Origin: Rhodospirillum sp.
Lineage (GTDB): Bacteria; Pseudomonadota; Alphaproteobacteria; Dongiales; Dongiaceae
DNA length: 64,000 bases
Direction of reading: 5' to 3'
Assembly (NCBI GenBank): GCA_013822765.1
Contig: PNKY01000002.1
Span: forward strand, 558,001 to 622,000
Shown piece by piece: positions 22,586 through 39,176 of this stretch. Position 1 is the stretch's first letter. Each line of letters starts with the position of its first letter. The notes below the pieces were generated by a model that was not told the DNA's origin, did no database searches, and saw only the letters and a list, made by a program, of their open reading frames with translations. Both the position numbers and the translations under genes were made by a program.

Positions 22586-23761
22586 TTATTCCGCCGCGCG
22601 GCGCGAGATCCAACCCTGCAGGGCGCGGCAGCGCGCGACCACCTCGGACAACCCGGAGATTCGGGTCAGATCTTGTGCGGTTTTGCGGATCGGCGGCATC
22701 TCGGGATTGAACGCCGATGCCGGGCGCGCCAGGTCAAGCGCGTAGACCGCCTGCTGGATGCGCCGCAGGTCGCGCGGATATCGCAGGATGTGTTGCGCAT
22801 GCAGCCAGTCCTGCGCAGCATTGAGCCGCTCGCCGGCGCCTGTCAGGCCGCGCGCGCGCATGGTCTCGCTCAAGCGGCTGAGGCGGTTGAACAGGCCGCG
22901 GCGCCAGCTGCGCTGGAGATCCACGCGGTTGGGCGATTCGATCACATAGGTCGGCGTGCCGGAGCCGCAGCCATCGAGGATCATGGACGCGCTGTCGGCG
23001 GTGACGAACAGGCACGCGGACTCGCGCAGCAGGGTGTCGTAGGGATTGCTGTTGTCGTTGGCATGGTTGTCGTTGGCCGGGGCAGGAGACCAGCGATAGA
23101 CGCGCGGGCGGAACAGGACGCCTTCCACCGCGGCGATCCAGGCCTCGGGCGTGCGCCGCGACGTGCACACGATGACCGATCCGCCATGGCGGTCGGCGGC
23201 CATCTGGGCGCGCAGCGCGACCTCCTTGAGCGTGCTCTCCGCAGTATCGAACTCCTTGACCTCGCCGCCCAGCAGGATGGTGAACCATGGCTTCGGCGCC
23301 GGCACGACGGCGCTGCTGGCATTTCGCATGCGCCGCGGACGCGCCAGCGGCAGTCGCAGGCCGACGACATTCGAGCGCTTGGGCAGCATGAACTGCGGCG
23401 TGCCGACCAGCAGATCGTATTCCGCGATGGCGCGATGTGCGCGGCCGATCGAGACGATCCTGGTGCGGCCGCCAGATTGTTCCTTGACCCAGAACGCAAC
23501 GCGGCTCGCTCGCCGACCGCAGCACACGATCAACGACGGCCAGGGTGCCTGCAAGCCAAGCGCGTGGCGGCGGCGCGCGCCATCGTCGGTGTCGGACAAT
23601 AAGCGATGCGTGAGAACGCGATCGTCTGCGCCAGCGGCCCAGTCGAGGCGCTTGATCACGTACGGTCGATCGAGCGCGTCGGCCAAGGCTAGGCACTGCT
23701 CGTTGTCGCCGGAGGCGTGGGTCTGGAGAATCCAGATATCGGACTGAAACGCGCTGATCAT
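22586..23761 (-). CDS. ELM1-family (mitochondrial fission ELM1-like) protein
   Basis: Protein of 391 aa from MISAFQSDIWILQTHASGDN. The start motif and the later segments FTILLGGEVKEFD, SVIVCTSRRTPEAW and LFVTADSASMILDGCGSGTPTYVIE match the ELM1/COG3660 family. These look like GT-B-type folds with a nucleotide-sugar-like C-terminal half, and bacterial members often sit in cell-envelope or LPS loci. No reaction is established. Here it is divergent from a Wzx-like flippase, consistent with a surface glycan role. A Lys/Arg-rich insert and an Asn-rich loop (PANDNHANDNSNP) are peculiar. Confidence 0.82.
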   Translation of the reverse strand: MISAFQSDIWILQTHASGDNEQCLALADALDRPYVIKRLDWAAGADDRVLTHRLLSDTDDGARRRHALGLQAPWPSLIVCCGRRASRVAFWVKEQSGGRTRIVSIGRAHRAIAEYDLLVGTPQFMLPKRSNVVGLRLPLARPRRMRNASSAVVPAPKPWFTILLGGEVKEFDTAESTLKEVALRAQMAADRHGGSVIVCTSRRTPEAWIAAVEGVLFRPRVYRWSPAPANDNHANDNSNPYDTLLRESACLFVTADSASMILDGCGSGTPTYVIESPNRVDLQRSWRRGLFNRLSRLSETMRARGLTGAGERLNAAQDWLHAQHILRYPRDLRRIQQAVYALDLARPASAFNPEMPPIRKTAQDLTRISGLSEVVARCRALQGWISRRAAE

Positions 23762-24390
23762 GCTCACTGCGGACGGATGTGCGATATCGCCAATGCTACG
23801 TTGCAGCCGGTCCCCTAGATGTTGGGTGCCGCGCCCCGCCCGGCAAGGTGCCGGAGTGCGACAAAAACCACCTGTGTCACCGATCACAAAGCCGCGATTC
23901 GGGTCTTGCGCAAAAACCGCGGTGGGTTGGGGGATATTGCATCAATTCAAGCCGCCCGCAATCGATCTCCGCTAGAGACGCCTCTTCCCACCTTTGTGGG
24001 GGAAGGATCCGGAGCCTTAGCGAGGCGCAGCTGGATCGGGGTGCCGCCGGACGATCGCTTGGGCGCCCCGTTGGCTGTCGTGCGGCGGCCCCCATCCCAA
24101 CCTTCTCCCACAAGGGGGAAGGGGCTCAGCAAGCATGTCGGATCGGCCGTGCGTTCCGTATGCGATGGCCGTGAGAACGGCGACACCGGTTGCATCCCTG
24201 TGACATCGGCGCAGTGCGGCAACTTGCGGGGCGTTGGCGGCTTGCTTCCCGGACCGGGGCCACTTTCCGGCGCCGGACCTATCTGCTAGGACCTTTCTGC
24301 CAAGAGGGGGCGCGGCGAGTGGGCCATGGTCGTGGCGGCGCAGTGTGGCGAGCGCCATTCGCAAGACGGTAAAAGGCCAATATCCAGCCC
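23762..24390. other. Long intergenic region between the ELM1 gene and the flippase gene
   Basis: This 629-base divergent gap has no convincing gene. It holds the promoters of both neighbours and the hairpin repeat at 23985-24124. No clear operator was seen. Open frames here are short and lack family resemblance. Confidence 0.6.
23985..24124. repeat. Intergenic element bounded by two inverted-repeat hairpins
   Basis: The left hairpin is CTTCCCACCTTTGTGGGGGAAG and the right is CCTTCTCCCACAAGGGGGAAGG; each folds on itself and the two are similar. About 95 bases of GC-rich sequence separate them. A single related hairpin lies at 15017-15038. It resembles dispersed intergenic repeats of GC-rich alphaproteobacteria, but family membership needs a genome scan. 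Confidence 0.55.
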
Positions 24391-25953
24391 ATGAACGACA
24401 ATTCTCGGACAAGCCGGCAGGCCTTGAAAAAGGCCAATTCCAGCACGCGCAAGCTGACCGAGCCGGAGAACGACGAGCCGAGCCTCTACAACGAAGACCT
24501 GAGACAGAAGACCCGCTGGTCGATCCTGTGGACGGTGGTCCGCATCGCCTCGGATCAGATGTTCTCGTTCGTCGTGTTCGTGATCCTGGCGCGCCTGTTG
24601 TCGCCGCACGAGATCGGAATCTTCGCCCTTGCCATCGCATTCACCGAGGTGAGCCGCGTCATCGCCATCCAGGGCATGGTGCAGAACATCCCGCGCGCCA
24701 AGAAGCTGACGCCGGAGCTTGCCGACACGGTGTTCTGGACCAACCTCGCGATGTCGGTCGTGGTGGCATTCGTGGTCCTGGGCCTCGCGCCGATCATCAT
24801 GGGCGTGATCGACCAGCCCGATGCGGCCGCGCCGCTGCAGGCGCTCGGATTCGTGCTGCCGATCGCGGCACTGGGCGCGACGCACATGTCGCTGCGCCTG
24901 CGCGAGTTCGGGCACAAGTCGCTGGCGCTGCGCTCACTCGTCGGCGGCACCATCGGCGGCGGCGCCGCAATCGCGGCGGCCTTTGCCGGCTGGGGGATCT
25001 GGAGCCTGGTGGTGCAGCGCTTCGTCACCGAATCGATGAACGCGCTGATGGCGTGGCTGTCCTACCGGTGGCTGCCCGGCCGCAACTTCTCGATCAAGCA
25101 GCTGCGCGCGATCTGGGGCTTCGGCTTCAACATGGCGTTGACGCAGATTCTCGGCCTGTTGCCGCGGCGCGCCATAGATCTGGTGATTGGCACCGTCATC
25201 GGTGCGGCGGCGGTCGGTATCTATCGCACCGCAGGCCGGACCAGCGAACTGGTGGCGACCGGCACCATCTCGCCATACACCACCGTTGCGCTGCAGACCC
25301 TGTCGCGCCTGCAGACCGATACCAAGGAAATCACCAAGGCGTTTCGCTGGATGGTCTCTCGCAGCGCGATGCTGACTATTCCGGCGATGGTCGGCTTCGG
25401 GGTGCTGGCGCCCGACGCAGTGCCGGCAATCTATGGCGAGAAGTGGCGGGATGCCGGCGTGCTGGCGCAGACCTTCGCCTGCCTCGGCGTCACCTACTCG
25501 ATCTCCAGCTTCGCCTCGCCTCTGCTGATGGCGCTGGGGCGAGGCGCGACCCTGCGGACCCTGTCCATCTGCAACCTGACCGCTACCGTCGTGGTGGCGA
25601 TGCTGGCGGCGCCGTTCGGCATCTTCGTGATGGCGTGGGCGTCGGTCGTGCGCGGCTATCTATCGCTGCCCTTTACCCTGTGGGCGCTGAAGCGCGCATC
25701 AGGCATCACGCCCTTGGATGCACTGTCGGCGGTTTCCAAGCCGCTCGCCGCCTCGCTGATGATGGGGGCGGGGGTGTGGGGCCTGATGGAACTTATCCGG
25801 CCAATGTTCGCGCAGGTCTTGATCCCGGTCTTCATCTGCGTCGGGGCGGGCATGGCGATTTATGCGATACTGATTCTTGCGATCTCGCAACAGGCCCGAC
25901 AGCTGGCTGGGAACCAACTTAAGCGCGTGCGCGCGTTCACTGGAAAGAAGTAG
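24391..25953 (+). CDS. Wzx-like oligosaccharide flippase (polysaccharide transporter)
   Basis: Membrane protein of 520 aa in the MOP/MATE exporter superfamily. After a polar 40-residue N-terminus it has about 12-14 hydrophobic segments; the opening RWSILWTVVRIASDQMFSFV and LARLLSPHEIGIFALA are typical of O-antigen/exopolysaccharide flippases of the WzxC type. It would move lipid-linked oligosaccharide across the inner membrane. No polymerase or glycosyltransferase is adjacent, which is unusual, but an ELM1-family protein and two PP-loop proteins flank it. Confidence 0.87.
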   Translation: MNDNSRTSRQALKKANSSTRKLTEPENDEPSLYNEDLRQKTRWSILWTVVRIASDQMFSFVVFVILARLLSPHEIGIFALAIAFTEVSRVIAIQGMVQNIPRAKKLTPELADTVFWTNLAMSVVVAFVVLGLAPIIMGVIDQPDAAAPLQALGFVLPIAALGATHMSLRLREFGHKSLALRSLVGGTIGGGAAIAAAFAGWGIWSLVVQRFVTESMNALMAWLSYRWLPGRNFSIKQLRAIWGFGFNMALTQILGLLPRRAIDLVIGTVIGAAAVGIYRTAGRTSELVATGTISPYTTVALQTLSRLQTDTKEITKAFRWMVSRSAMLTIPAMVGFGVLAPDAVPAIYGEKWRDAGVLAQTFACLGVTYSISSFASPLLMALGRGATLRTLSICNLTATVVVAMLAAPFGIFVMAWASVVRGYLSLPFTLWALKRASGITPLDALSAVSKPLAASLMMGAGVWGLMELIRPMFAQVLIPVFICVGAGMAIYAILILAISQQARQLAGNQLKRVRAFTGKK

Positions 25954-26058: not shown

Positions 26059-27318
26059 TCAAGGCTCCCCGCGCCCGCCGGCAGCCGACATAGGCGCGTT
26101 TGACTGCGAGGGCGACGCGGATTGCGGGGCCACGTCCCGTCGAGCCTTCTCTTTCGAGTTGTGGATAAGTGGCCGCAGCTTGGCAGCGATGCGCTGTCGC
26201 AACTGGCGCGCCGGCAAGGCCAGACGATTCTTGGCTACCGCCAGCTTCAGGCTGGAAATCCAGGGGCCGCTCTCGCCATTCTTCCTGGCGGCGGTCAAAA
26301 TCTCGCGCAGGTACGAAAGCTGCACCCGGTTTCGGGCGAGAATGCCAACGATCTCGGCATGTGTCGGCCTGCGGTCAAAGCACAGCGGCTCCCGGCCGTT
26401 TGCCATGAAGTTGAGCTTCGTCCGGATGCACTTCTCGCATCGGCCGCAATTCCCGCCGGTCATCGGTCCTTCCCAGCAGACGCGAAGCTGCACAGCGATC
26501 TCCGGGTAGTCGCAGATCAGGCGCACGCGGTCCGTGCGCGTGAAGCCACCGCCCTCGGTATGGATCTCGAAGCCGCCTCCGGACAGGAGCGGGTTGGTGA
26601 TCGGATTGGAGCCCCAGGGCAACTCGATGTGGCCGTAATCCTCGTCGGCGCCGAGGATCCCGACGTTCGCCACGCCCTGGAACAGATGTAGGCAGGCGGC
26701 AAGTCCGCCGGCGAATTCCAACGTCCACGTCTTGCATGCCACATCGCGCCAGTTGGTGCGCACAGTCGACAGTGGCACGCCGAGGGTGCTGGTCATGGCG
26801 GCGATCGCGCTGCGCGCGCGCTCGTAGGCCTGCACCTCGGCGAGCGGCAGGTCGAAGCCATGGATCAGGACGGCGCACTCCGGCCGTGCGGTACGCAGTC
26901 CCGAGTGGCCACAGTGATGCCGCAGCAGCGCGAAGGTCCCGTCGACGCCACCTGAGACTGCAAACACGCCCCGGCGCAACGACGACGATGTCTTGTCGTG
27001 CAGCATCTGATCGGCGGTGATCCGGATCGGCGTGTAGCTGGGGCGCCAGAGCGCCCAGGCCTCCTGGAACTCCTCGAGGTTCCGGATCAGCGTTTCGGTC
27101 ACTGGCCCTTCGACGTGCATCGCACGTCCCTCTCGCATCGCCACGAACAATGCGGCGACAACCGCGAAGTCATAGACCTCCAGAGGCGGCGGCAGCACGT
27201 CCCCGGAGATCTCGAAGAAGATCGTGCGGGAGCCGCCGACGGCATTGAAAGTAGCCGTCCGTACAACGGAATGGCTGTCGCGGTCCTCGCGGACGGAAAT
27301 GCGCAAGCTATCGGCCAA
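26059..27318 (-). CDS. QueC-like PP-loop ATPase with zinc motif, paralogue A
   Basis: Protein of about 419 aa in an uncharacterised family. Residues 1-115 form an N-terminal region of unknown fold. A PP-loop follows: FAVSGGVDGTFALL (SGGVDGT at 122-128), where the usual second Ser of SGGxDS is Gly. A C281-x9-C291-x2-C294-x2-C297 cluster (GGNCGRCEKCIRTKLNF) closely resembles the QueC zinc motif. A basic C-terminal tail follows. The start is uncertain: TTG here aligns with the ATG of paralogue B; GTG at 27333 and TTG at 27456 are open alternatives. It may adenylate a carboxylate substrate. The neighbouring flippase suggests surface glycan chemistry. Confidence 0.72.
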   Translation of the reverse strand: MADSLRISVREDRDSHSVVRTATFNAVGGSRTIFFEISGDVLPPPLEVYDFAVVAALFVAMREGRAMHVEGPVTETLIRNLEEFQEAWALWRPSYTPIRITADQMLHDKTSSSLRRGVFAVSGGVDGTFALLRHHCGHSGLRTARPECAVLIHGFDLPLAEVQAYERARSAIAAMTSTLGVPLSTVRTNWRDVACKTWTLEFAGGLAACLHLFQGVANVGILGADEDYGHIELPWGSNPITNPLLSGGGFEIHTEGGGFTRTDRVRLICDYPEIAVQLRVCWEGPMTGGNCGRCEKCIRTKLNFMANGREPLCFDRRPTHAEIVGILARNRVQLSYLREILTAARKNGESGPWISSLKLAVAKNRLALPARQLRQRIAAKLRPLIHNSKEKARRDVAPQSASPSQSNAPMSAAGGRGEP

Positions 27319-27558
27319 TGAGCCAATCCCCACCAATGGACATATCTTCGAGCGCAGGCTCCGATCCTTCGGAAGGCTCGTCAGGAGAGAAAGTGCCGGC
27401 GCCAGTACTAGTTCCCATGTGCGATAGCAGGGCGATCTAGGCGGGTGGAGGGACAAAGCGGTGACATGGCCCGAGCAGGCGCGCTCAGGGCCAACAACCG
27501 ATTGATTTCGTCAACCCGTCATCAGGATGTGCGGTGCGCGAGGCGCCGTGGATGGATG

Positions 27559-28791
27559 CTATCGGTTGACCGCCGTCCGTGTCTGGGGCAGGTCGCGGCC
27601 GAGCCTTGCGCGTTGACTGCCGGTCTTTGCCGTCGGTTCGCGTAGCGATTTGAGCTTGCCGCTAATGCGCCGCCCTGCGGCGCGGCCCAGCATCGCCACT
27701 CTGTTCTTTTCGATCGTCAGCCTAAGCGCCGTCACCCAAGACCCGCTCATGCCGTTGGCTGCTGCAATCCGCAGAACTTCGCGCAGGAAATGGATCTGGA
27801 TTGGATTGCGGGTCCTGAGAGAGAGGATTTCCGCGAATGTCGGCGGCCGGTCGAAGCACAGCGGCGCGCTGCCGACTGCCATGAAGTTGAGCTTGGTCCT
27901 GATGCACTTCTCGCAGTGGCCGCAATTGCCACCAGTGAACGGACCTTCCCAGCAGACGCGCAGCTGGGCCGCGATCTCCGGATAGTCGCACAGGAACCGG
28001 ACGCGCTCGGTGCGCGTGACGCACCCGCCTTCGGTGACGATATCGAATCCGCCGCCCGACATCAGGTGATTGGTGACGGGGTTGCATCCCAGCGGCACGA
28101 TGATGTGGGCATAGTCCTCCGCCGCGCCGCAGACGCCGACATTCGCGAGACCGCGAAACTGCATCAGGCAGGAGGCGAGGGTGGCCTGGCAATCCATGCC
28201 CCAGTCACGGCCGAGTACGTCGCGCCAGTTGGTCTCCACGATCGACAGCGGAATACCGAGCGGGCTCGTCATCGCCGCGATGCGATCGCGCGCATGGTCG
28301 AACGCAAGCTGCTCGCGCAGCGGAATGTCGAAGCCATGCACCAGCATGGCGCAGACCGGACGCACCGCCCGGATGCCGGCGTGGCCGGTATGGTGCTTCA
28401 GCAGCGCGTAGGTGCCATCGACGCCGCCCGAGACCGCGAACACGCCGCGCCGGACGTCAGAGATCTCCGTCGGCACGACCTGGTCGGCGGTGATCTGAAC
28501 GCGGCGGTACTTCGGCTGCCACAGCGACCAGATCTCCTGGAACTCGTCGACGTTGCGGAGCAGGGCGGCGCTGACCGGTCCTTCGACGTGGACATGCCGT
28601 CCTTCGCGCATCGCGACATAGAGTGCGGCGATGACGGCGAAGTCGTAGGCGTCGAGCGGCGGCGGCAGGGTCTCGCCGGTGATCCGATAGAACACGCTGA
28701 CCGGCCCGCCGGCCAAGGTGTAGGTGGCGGTTCGTACAATGGCGTTCGATTGCCGCTGCTCGCGCACGGCAATGCGCATGACGTCGTTCAT
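27559..28791 (-). CDS. QueC-like PP-loop ATPase with zinc motif, paralogue B
   Basis: Protein of 410 aa, clearly homologous to its downstream neighbour along nearly the whole length (shared FAVSGGVDGT, LVHGFD, NPVTN-type and GGNCG-x-CEKCIRTKLNFMA motifs). SGGVDGT is at 121-127 and the zinc-type cysteines are C280, C290, C293 and C296. The start is ATG; a GTG at 28803 with AGAGGG four bases upstream is an alternative adding four residues. Being about twice as long as QueC and duplicated, it is not an ordinary queuosine gene. It is the upstream gene of the pair, with 240 bases between them. Confidence 0.75.
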   Translation of the reverse strand: MNDVMRIAVREQRQSNAIVRTATYTLAGGPVSVFYRITGETLPPPLDAYDFAVIAALYVAMREGRHVHVEGPVSAALLRNVDEFQEIWSLWQPKYRRVQITADQVVPTEISDVRRGVFAVSGGVDGTYALLKHHTGHAGIRAVRPVCAMLVHGFDIPLREQLAFDHARDRIAAMTSPLGIPLSIVETNWRDVLGRDWGMDCQATLASCLMQFRGLANVGVCGAAEDYAHIIVPLGCNPVTNHLMSGGGFDIVTEGGCVTRTERVRFLCDYPEIAAQLRVCWEGPFTGGNCGHCEKCIRTKLNFMAVGSAPLCFDRPPTFAEILSLRTRNPIQIHFLREVLRIAAANGMSGSWVTALRLTIEKNRVAMLGRAAGRRISGKLKSLREPTAKTGSQRARLGRDLPQTRTAVNR

Positions 28792-37929: not shown

Positions 37930-38331
37930 ATGTTGCAGCGCCTGAATCCGGCGAGCGTGTCAGCGCCTTTCAGCCGATATTCCCATGCGGTGATCGCGCC
38001 GGAGGGCTATCGGTGGCTGTACATCTCGGGTCAGGTCGGCGCCGATCGCGACCGCAAGATCCCCAAGGACTTCGAAGCCCAGGCCGAGTTGGCGTTCCAG
38101 AACCTGATCGCCTGCATCCGTGAGTCGGGCTTTGACCTGCAGGACCTGGTGAAGGTCACCGTTCTGCTCACCCGGGCGAGCGATATCGCGGCCTATCGGC
38201 AGGTTCGCGACCGGATGCTGGGAAGCGTGGCGCCGGCGAGCACGCTCATGATCGTGGCGGGGCTGGCGGCGCCGGAACTGCTGGTCGAAGTCGAAGGGGT
38301 GGCGGCGCGGCCCGCCGAGCGCACAGCATGA
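37930..38331 (+). CDS. RidA/YjgF-family protein lacking the catalytic Arg
   Basis: YjgF-fold protein of 133 aa (YISGQVGADRDRKIP, AFQNLIACIRESGFDLQDLVKVTVLLT, LLVEVEGVAA). Canonical RidA deaminases have Arg105 in a P-x-R-S motif; here that stretch is APASTLMIV, so the Arg is Ser. It is therefore unlikely to hydrolyse 2-aminoacrylate-derived imines. Its last codon overlaps the first PilZ gene (ATGA), so it is translationally coupled to the PilZ trio. Role unknown. Confidence 0.85.
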   Translation: MLQRLNPASVSAPFSRYSHAVIAPEGYRWLYISGQVGADRDRKIPKDFEAQAELAFQNLIACIRESGFDLQDLVKVTVLLTRASDIAAYRQVRDRMLGSVAPASTLMIVAGLAAPELLVEVEGVAARPAERTA

Positions 38332-38603
38332 CCACCGACGAGGATCCGTTCGCCGACCGTCGCTCGTCCGTCCGCAAGAAGGTGACGCGCGCGGCGCGGG
38401 TGTTTTTCAACGACCGGCAGAGCCTGATCGACTGCACCATCCTCGATCTGTCCGACGGCGGCGCCAAGCTGGAATTCGCCGGCCGCCAGATGCTGCCGCG
38501 CACCTTCGATCTGCAGATGCAGAACGGCGCGATCTATCGCTGCGAAGTGCGCTGGGCCAAGGACAATTTCTTCGGCGTCCGCTTCCTGGACGACAACGAG
38601 TAG
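38328..38603 (+). CDS. PilZ-domain mini-protein 1
   Basis: Single-domain PilZ protein of 91 aa. The c-di-GMP motif R-x3-R is R-SSV-R in ADRRSSVRKK and the second motif is D-L-S-D-G-G (D/NxSxxG). It overlaps the RidA-like stop by four bases. PilZ proteins change partner activity on binding c-di-GMP. First of three tandem copies. Confidence 0.88.
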   Translation: MTTDEDPFADRRSSVRKKVTRAARVFFNDRQSLIDCTILDLSDGGAKLEFAGRQMLPRTFDLQMQNGAIYRCEVRWAKDNFFGVRFLDDNE

Positions 38604-38618
38604 GCCGCGGCGGGCGCC

Positions 38619-38897
38619 ATGACCGACGATCAGGGCAGCTCACAAGACACGCGACGCGGCCAGGACCGCAAGACCGTCCTCAAGGGCGCCAAGGTGGTGT
38701 TCAACAACGGCAAGGGTGTGCTGGTCTGCCGGGTGCGCGACCTGTCGCCGGACGGCGCGCGCCTGGAGTTTGCGCCGCGCCAGGCCGTGCCCGATACCTT
38801 CGAGCTGCACGTGATGGGGCAACCGGTGCGCAAATGCGAGCGGCGCTGGGTCCGGAACAATATCGTCGGCGTGCGGTTTGTGGCGGAGGACAAGTAG
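38619..38897 (+). CDS. PilZ-domain mini-protein 2
   Basis: PilZ protein of 92 aa with R-GQD-R and DLSPDGARLEF, so both ligand motifs are kept. It starts 15 bases after copy 1. The core aligns along its whole length with both neighbours (VRNNIVGVRF versus AKDNFFGVRF), showing tandem duplication. Partner and target unknown. Confidence 0.88.
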   Translation: MTDDQGSSQDTRRGQDRKTVLKGAKVVFNNGKGVLVCRVRDLSPDGARLEFAPRQAVPDTFELHVMGQPVRKCERRWVRNNIVGVRFVAEDK

Positions 38898-38909
38898 CGG
38901 CGGCGAGTC

Positions 38910-39176
38910 ATGACCGACGATCCATCCCATCCTTCCGATGAACGACGCGGCCGCGAGGCCCGCCGGACCGCTCTGAAGAGCGGGCGCATCGTCTTTCCGG
39001 GCGGCAGCGTCGAATGCAAGCTGCGGAACATCTCCGACGGCGGCGCCCGCCTGGAGATCGGCGGTCAGCAGCTCCTGCCACACACCTTCGAGCTGCACAT
39101 CACCAGCTGGCCGATCCGCCAATGCAGCCTGCGCTGGGCCAAGGACAACCTGGTCGGCGTGCAGTTCCTGGATTAG
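38910..39176 (+). CDS. PilZ-domain mini-protein 3
   Basis: PilZ protein of 88 aa. The second motif is NISDGG. The Arg pair is shifted: R-EAR-R within ERRGREARRTAL fits R-x3-R, but the exact register is less clear than in copies 1 and 2. It begins 12 bases after copy 2 and converges with the GFA gene. Binding to c-di-GMP is probable but less certain. Confidence 0.85.
   Translation: MTDDPSHPSDERRGREARRTALKSGRIVFPGGSVECKLRNISDGGARLEIGGQQLLPHTFELHITSWPIRQCSLRWAKDNLVGVQFLD

Follow-up and report, generated by a model that had tools for sequence, protein, structure and literature searches.

QueC-type enzymes are known from tRNA-base synthesis and, more recently, from protein tagging in phage defence. 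In an alphaproteobacterium deposited as Rhodospirillum sp. (GTDB family Dongiaceae; assembly GCA_013822765.1), two QueC-like genes stand in tandem beside a polysaccharide flippase gene, and their products are about twice as long as QueC. We asked to which family these proteins belong and what they might do in this setting. The analysis started from a window of 64,000 nucleotides (contig PNKY01000002.1, positions 558,001 to 622,000) and extended to relatives of the pair in other genomes.

The gene pair and its predicted fold

The earlier note on this window, made from the sequence alone, had picked out a tandem pair of proteins of about 410 residues, each with SGGVDGT and a C-x9-C-x2-C-x2-C cluster. 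Both ORFs proved intact and lie on the minus strand (Table 1). The two proteins, copies A and B, are 58% identical over 406 residues and their genes are spaced 225 bp apart. The order of flippase and pair is the same in two further genomes of the genus. Elsewhere in the window, three tandem ORFs of about 90 residues with similar N-termini (38328-39176) perhaps encode small PilZ-like proteins.

Table 1. Positions in the window of the PP-loop gene pair, its motifs and the adjoining genes.
Feature	Position	Strand	Remarks
QueC/QatC-like PP-loop protein copy A	27559..28791	minus	410 aa, intact; groups with upstream copy in genome G003
QueC/QatC-like PP-loop protein copy B	26059..27333	minus	About 419-424 aa, intact; start TTG 27318 or GTG 27333
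Copy A N-terminal domain, residues 1-112	28456..28791	minus	Separate AlphaFold model; weak RNase H-fold matches
Copy A PP-loop SGGVDGT, residues 121-127	28411..28431	minus	Sequence, alignment, AlphaFold model
Copy A motif PLGCNPVTN	28069..28095	minus	Family consensus PWGS-[NH]-P-x-T-[DN]; near region bearing YPDC in QueC
Copy A zinc-type cluster C280-x9-C290-x2-C293-x2-C296	27904..27954	minus	Sequence, alignment
Copy B PP-loop SGGVDGT	26935..26955	minus	Sequence
Copy B zinc-type cluster C-x9-C-x2-C-x2-C	26428..26478	minus	Sequence
Wzx-type polysaccharide flippase (Polysacc_synt_3)	24391..25953	plus	Pfam E 9.8e-66; convergent with copy B, 105 bp apart
ELM1-like protein (PF06258) adjoining flippase	22586..23887	minus	Pfam; tie to PP-loop pair uncertain

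We modelled copy A with AlphaFold2 from an alignment with 84 relatives (pLDDT 93.7, pTM 0.90). The model shows a domain of RNase H-like topology, then a QueC-type PP-loop core with its cysteine site, and helical C-terminal segments. SGGVDGT sits between strand 115-119 and helix 124-134. The best structural match to the model was QatC (9y01, Z 15.5, 295 residues, model residues 1 to 366), and the next were QueC (3bl5, Z 13.3, residues 113-309) and Cap9 (9nto, Z 12.2). Further PP-loop ATP pyrophosphatases, including ThiI, LarE and TilS, were listed at Z of about 10. The fold (Z 9-15) and the placement of SGGxD(S) between the first core strand and helix assign the proteins to the PP-loop superfamily. 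Foldseek gave no match at E below 0.001, Cap9 being third at E 0.014, which indicates that the kinship to known structures is distant.

The QueC-like core read from the sequence is thus borne out by a confident model with a PP-loop site and by matches to QatC, QueC and Cap9, and the additional N-terminal region turned out to be a separate domain. Modelled alone (pLDDT 94.8), this domain has the order beta-beta-beta-alpha-beta-alpha-beta and matches RNase H-like folds only, at a Z of about 6 that may reflect just a common arrangement. The predicted RNase H-like topology is no evidence of nuclease activity.

An undescribed family and its conserved positions

Copies A and B are paralogues and belong to an undescribed family that has the QatC architecture. 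Neither matched a model above threshold in Pfam, NCBIfam or PADLOC, and the Pfam gathering score of QueC (PF06508) was reached by neither. Among the 84 relatives, PF06508 matched 38 and DUF6395 (PF19932) matched 46 at E up to 0.1, all weakly, with a best PF06508 value of 0.00036. The window pair resembles DUF6395 below its curated cut-off and over only about 40 residues, where the NCGxCEKC region is held in common; a DUF6395 search over 200 genomes gave no match anywhere, controls included, and carries no weight. NCBIfam models gave the 84 relatives weak matches only, to QueC, LarE and QatC among others. No PDB chain matched by sequence, the PP-loop matches all lying below threshold. Annotated relatives on plasmids of Azospirillum, Gloeothece and Gemmobacter are named "hypothetical protein" in RefSeq, and in the open-licence literature we found no description of the family and no paper on DUF6395. 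The profile comparison that the earlier note had proposed therefore matched no characterised family above threshold, and its suspicion of an undescribed group holds.

Of the ten largest PF06508 clusters in a 2026 survey, seven are described and the remaining three are almost exclusively archaeal (PMC13329287). Compared by description, the survey's QatC cluster is the nearest in architecture, and no cluster is described there with the motifs and context of our family (PMC13329287).

One scan of 84,980 genomes confirmed 160 relatives. For orthologues of the pair from two further members of the genus, dN is about 0.25-0.28 against dS of about 1.1, a sign of purifying selection; together with the 160 relatives, this indicates that the pair is not a product of chance. 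The scan recruited loci through a single degenerate pattern, [GPN]xNCGxC[EQK]KC, so that the 84-member alignment was largely bound to show NCGxCxKC as invariant, and the family is at least as large as counted. Support for the motif independent of the pattern comes from paralogues found by whole-protein search. Tandem partners that deviate from the pattern still keep all four cysteines, with CPKC (L062, L063, L075), CAKC (L084) or CSKC (L067).

Gly123 and Asp125 of the PP-loop and Cys280 are invariant in all 84 members and lie outside the search pattern, so their invariance is independent of recruitment. Ser121, Trp91, Gly153, Gly235 and Arg260 are nearly invariant in the same alignment, and a TNxR motif shows little or no variation over at least ten phyla. 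Position 50 is Asp in 65 and Glu in 10 of the 84. The first cysteine gap, x9 in the window pair, ranges from x7 to x14 across the family, so the site is a variant of the QueC-type C-x8-C-x2-C-x2-C, and its metal is predicted from the pattern to be zinc. The last PP-loop residue is Ser in 37, Ala in 27 and Gly in 18 of the 84 members. Gly in place of Ser, which had been taken to set the pair apart, is thus ordinary, and we dropped this position as a functional marker since all three residues are scattered over the tree.

The tree covers at least ten phyla, including Pseudomonadota, Actinomycetota, Verrucomicrobiota, Cyanobacteriota, Bacteroidota, Acidobacteriota and Gemmatimonadota. Of 299 genomes sampled evenly from the window's phylum, 7 carry the family, which is multicopy in 5 of those 7; the window's own genome has five copies. 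Adjacent pairs recur, for example at ten further loci, and at four loci (L063, L067, L075, L084) the members of a pair belong to different subclades, a hint of two-enzyme sets. In the tree, copy A clusters with the upstream G003 copy, and copy B clusters with the second G003 copy and the only one in Dongia deserti, which suggests a duplication before the Dongia species split. The window pair falls inside a 14-row clade (SH-aLRT 97) that holds both flippase-linked and pyruvyl-transferase-linked members.

Three other members stood out. The alphaproteobacterium G118, with a genome of only about 1.9 Mb, has four family copies, two of them tandem (L145, L146). A very divergent Dongia paralogue (L012:9021-10178) has SCGVDS replacing SGGxDS. 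Directly upstream of another Dongia paralogue lies a gene for a DUF6065 and SapC fusion protein (L010:10820-12058).

Gene neighbourhoods of the relatives

Polysaccharide pyruvyl transferase (PF04230) was the commonest Pfam family among the neighbours, with 17 of 227 proteins, and flippases and glycosyltransferases were also prominent. With a purpose-built profile we found 26 pyruvyl-transferase-like ORFs in flanks of about 10 kb on each side; all lie within 6 kb of a family member, and 20 of them are no more than 500 bp away. This count includes near-duplicate loci (L066/L068, L131/L132), and four plasmid loci were among the seeds of the profile. Comparison of coordinates showed that in seven genomes the only detected PF04230 gene adjoins a family gene. 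In two Betaproteobacteria the single PF04230 gene is about 13 kb and about 25 kb away, respectively. In Azospirillum (L131/L132), a family gene and a pyruvyl-transferase gene form an annotated two-gene unit apart from other polysaccharide genes. Gloeothece has glycosyltransferases, a pyruvyl transferase and a family gene in a row, and Gemmobacter is similar.

The flippase link drawn from the window also recurs: besides the genomes of the genus, a flippase gene directly follows the family gene in Betaproteobacteria (with an ATGA overlap in L020) and in G118. The family genes of G118 and G287 adjoin flippase- and glycosyltransferase-like ORFs, which were named by reading their sequences, the G287 flippase being additionally compared with other flippases. 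Gene calls in the relatives' loci came from a simple scoring script. The family-adjacent flippases of Dongia and Betaproteobacteria are only about 23% identical.

Pyruvyl transferases and flippases are frequent neighbours, but a sizeable share of the family sits in ordinary surroundings, next to S-adenosylmethionine synthetase in Derxia and ribosomal protein L2 in Tateyamaria, for example, and some relatives lie among housekeeping genes. The sole polysaccharide neighbour of the Dongia pair is the convergent flippase, and no pyruvyl-transferase gene adjoins the pair.

Candidate reactions and substrates

We propose that the family enzymes activate a carboxyl group with formation of AMP and so modify an acidic exopolysaccharide precursor before its export, as part of surface-polysaccharide assembly. 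We give this reading about an even chance. QueC-type and related enzymes are known to adenylate their substrate while splitting ATP into AMP and PPi, and the fold and invariant residues make this the likeliest chemistry predicted here. Action on a glycan precursor is suggested by the gene association, a context that makes an acidic glycan precursor the likeliest predicted substrate and amide formation the simplest predicted product.

In the proposed scheme, the PP-loop core would spend ATP to adenylate an acidic sugar at its carboxyl (or amide) group. The substrate would be a cytoplasmic, probably lipid-linked precursor that bears a uronic acid, or a pyruvate ketal from a pyruvyl transferase. 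Displacement of AMP by ammonia or an amine would leave an amide-type decoration, after which a Wzx flippase would export the unit. Copies A and B, which appear to have split before the Dongia species separated, would probably differ in substrate or form a heteromer. We hold an amide product to be less likely than the broad statement that a polysaccharide is modified; the amidation raised in the earlier note would agree with the data.

The polysaccharide reading has points against it. The Dongia flippase gene is convergent and not co-transcribed with the pair, which also has no adjoining pyruvyl-transferase gene, and many relatives occur in ordinary neighbourhoods. PF04230 and the Wzx-type flippases are broad families, so they do not fix the substrate. 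A narrower version, tentative and rather doubtful, is that one part of the QueC/QatC superfamily, which escapes the current Pfam and NCBIfam models and shares its architecture with defence QatC, modifies surface polysaccharides in a new way together with a pyruvyl-transferase-family partner, for example by amidating a pyruvate ketal or uronic acid or by forming a nitrile on it.

The family could instead serve polysaccharide assembly through another chemistry: sulphur transfer, the formation of an amidine as by N-acetyl sugar amidotransferase, or the conversion of an amide to a nitrile by loss of water. The structural list includes PP-loop sulphur transferases (Z 9-11) and also N-acetyl sugar amidotransferase (WbpG/PseA group, 8wex, Z 7.2), a PP-loop enzyme of surface-polysaccharide biosynthesis and a possible functional analogue. 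However, a Z of only 7.2 is within the range of common arrangements. The family's C-x9-C-x2-C-x2-C is of QueC type and differs both from the CxxC(x)6CxC of the WbpG group and from the LarE-type site of three cysteines (PMC13329287). We consider these chemistries unlikely.

The best full-length structural match invites another comparison, that with QatC of the qatABCD anti-phage defence system (NF041925, 9y01). The family shares with QatC its length, an N-terminal domain, the QueC core, a helical C-terminal extension, the loss of the QueC YPDC motif and an acidic residue starting the corresponding N-terminal helix. In a global profile comparison with six QatC proteins (355 columns aligned), Asp50 is matched to an Asp that is invariant in the N-terminal domain of QatC, probably the Asp63 named for E. 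coli QatC (PMC13329287). A protein modifier like QatC or Cap9 that links a small acid to a partner protein at its N-terminus, in defence or in regulation of the polysaccharide machinery, would fit these likenesses. However, the QatC motifs ENGFISLN and STRTTHP are absent from the family, and NF041925 matched neither window protein and only 4 of the 84 relatives, weakly. Genes for qatA (KAP ATPase), qatB and qatD (TatD) were absent among the scanned window neighbours and five annotated regions, and did not figure in the neighbour tallies, each of which lists 25 families. A partner with N-terminal MG[GTSA][ST] was found in 4 of 467 nearby predicted genes, with differing lengths and sequences and none consistent. 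Cap9 of type IV CBASS shares the QueC-type core but is only about 185 residues long, retains the Tyr and Asp that bind CDG and has a CD-NTase partner (PMC13329287); the scanned window neighbours and annotated regions held no CD-NTase. Motifs, partners and PADLOC rule out membership in Qat or CBASS. With no PADLOC match and no relatives found in phage records, the defence role first entertained for the pair is not upheld, and we regard a protein modifier as improbable.

The family might also be non-catalytic, a nucleotide-binding structural or regulatory protein such as one that senses acidic polysaccharide precursors. Copies that stand alone in ordinary neighbourhoods, and the acceptance of Ala or Gly as the last residue of the PP-loop, would agree with this. 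Against it, Gly123, Asp125, Cys280, Arg260 and TNxR are kept across at least ten phyla, in what looks from the sequences like the pattern of an active ATP pyrophosphatase, and we allow this reading a slim chance.

Nucleotide derivatisation through 7-deazaguanine, a further suggestion of the earlier note, was not supported either. The host genome (97.7% complete) has Tgt, and in a profile search QueC, QueD, QueE and QueA were not found, suggesting queuine salvage; the host could still import a precursor. Neither QueE nor QueD was seen in 18 of 37 family-bearing genomes, including isolates of Devosia, Jannaschia, Pseudooceanicola, Silicimonas and Kitasatospora; QueE is divergent, and the QueE and QueD models both matched in 9 of 14 control genomes. 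Dongia deserti, unlike the host, has QueC, QueD and QueE.

The motifs were compared as well. YPDC, whose Tyr and Asp bind CDG in QueC, and YxQxHxxE are both absent from the family columns (motifs per PMC13329287). QatC has two threonines where QueC has this Tyr and Asp (PMC13279940). Near the YPDC region the family has PWGS-[NH]-P-x-T-[DN], a placement taken from sequence alignment. The QueC substrate motifs and the QatC signature are absent and the host was found without QueC, QueD, QueE and QueA, which together argue for neither preQ0 synthesis nor Qat defence; a preQ0 or queuosine role was rejected because these genes were not found in the host. Despite the QueC fold and a QueA-family gene directly upstream of a relative, followed by a pyruvyl-transferase-like ORF, in Saccharothrix (L066:8866-9969) and Kitasatospora (L074:8722-9837), the latter with no QueE or QueD seen, an enzyme that converts CDG to preQ0 or attaches a deazaguanine to a glycan or metabolite is very improbable.

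If the modification of surface polysaccharides is confirmed, a family with the whole architecture of QatC in a polysaccharide setting would represent a third field for the QueC-type fold. The family would then serve as a comparison for the role of the extra domains of QatC, and as a specific candidate to account for modifications of bacterial exopolysaccharides that so far lack an explanation. The two-gene unit of Azospirillum would open the polysaccharide role to simple knock-outs.
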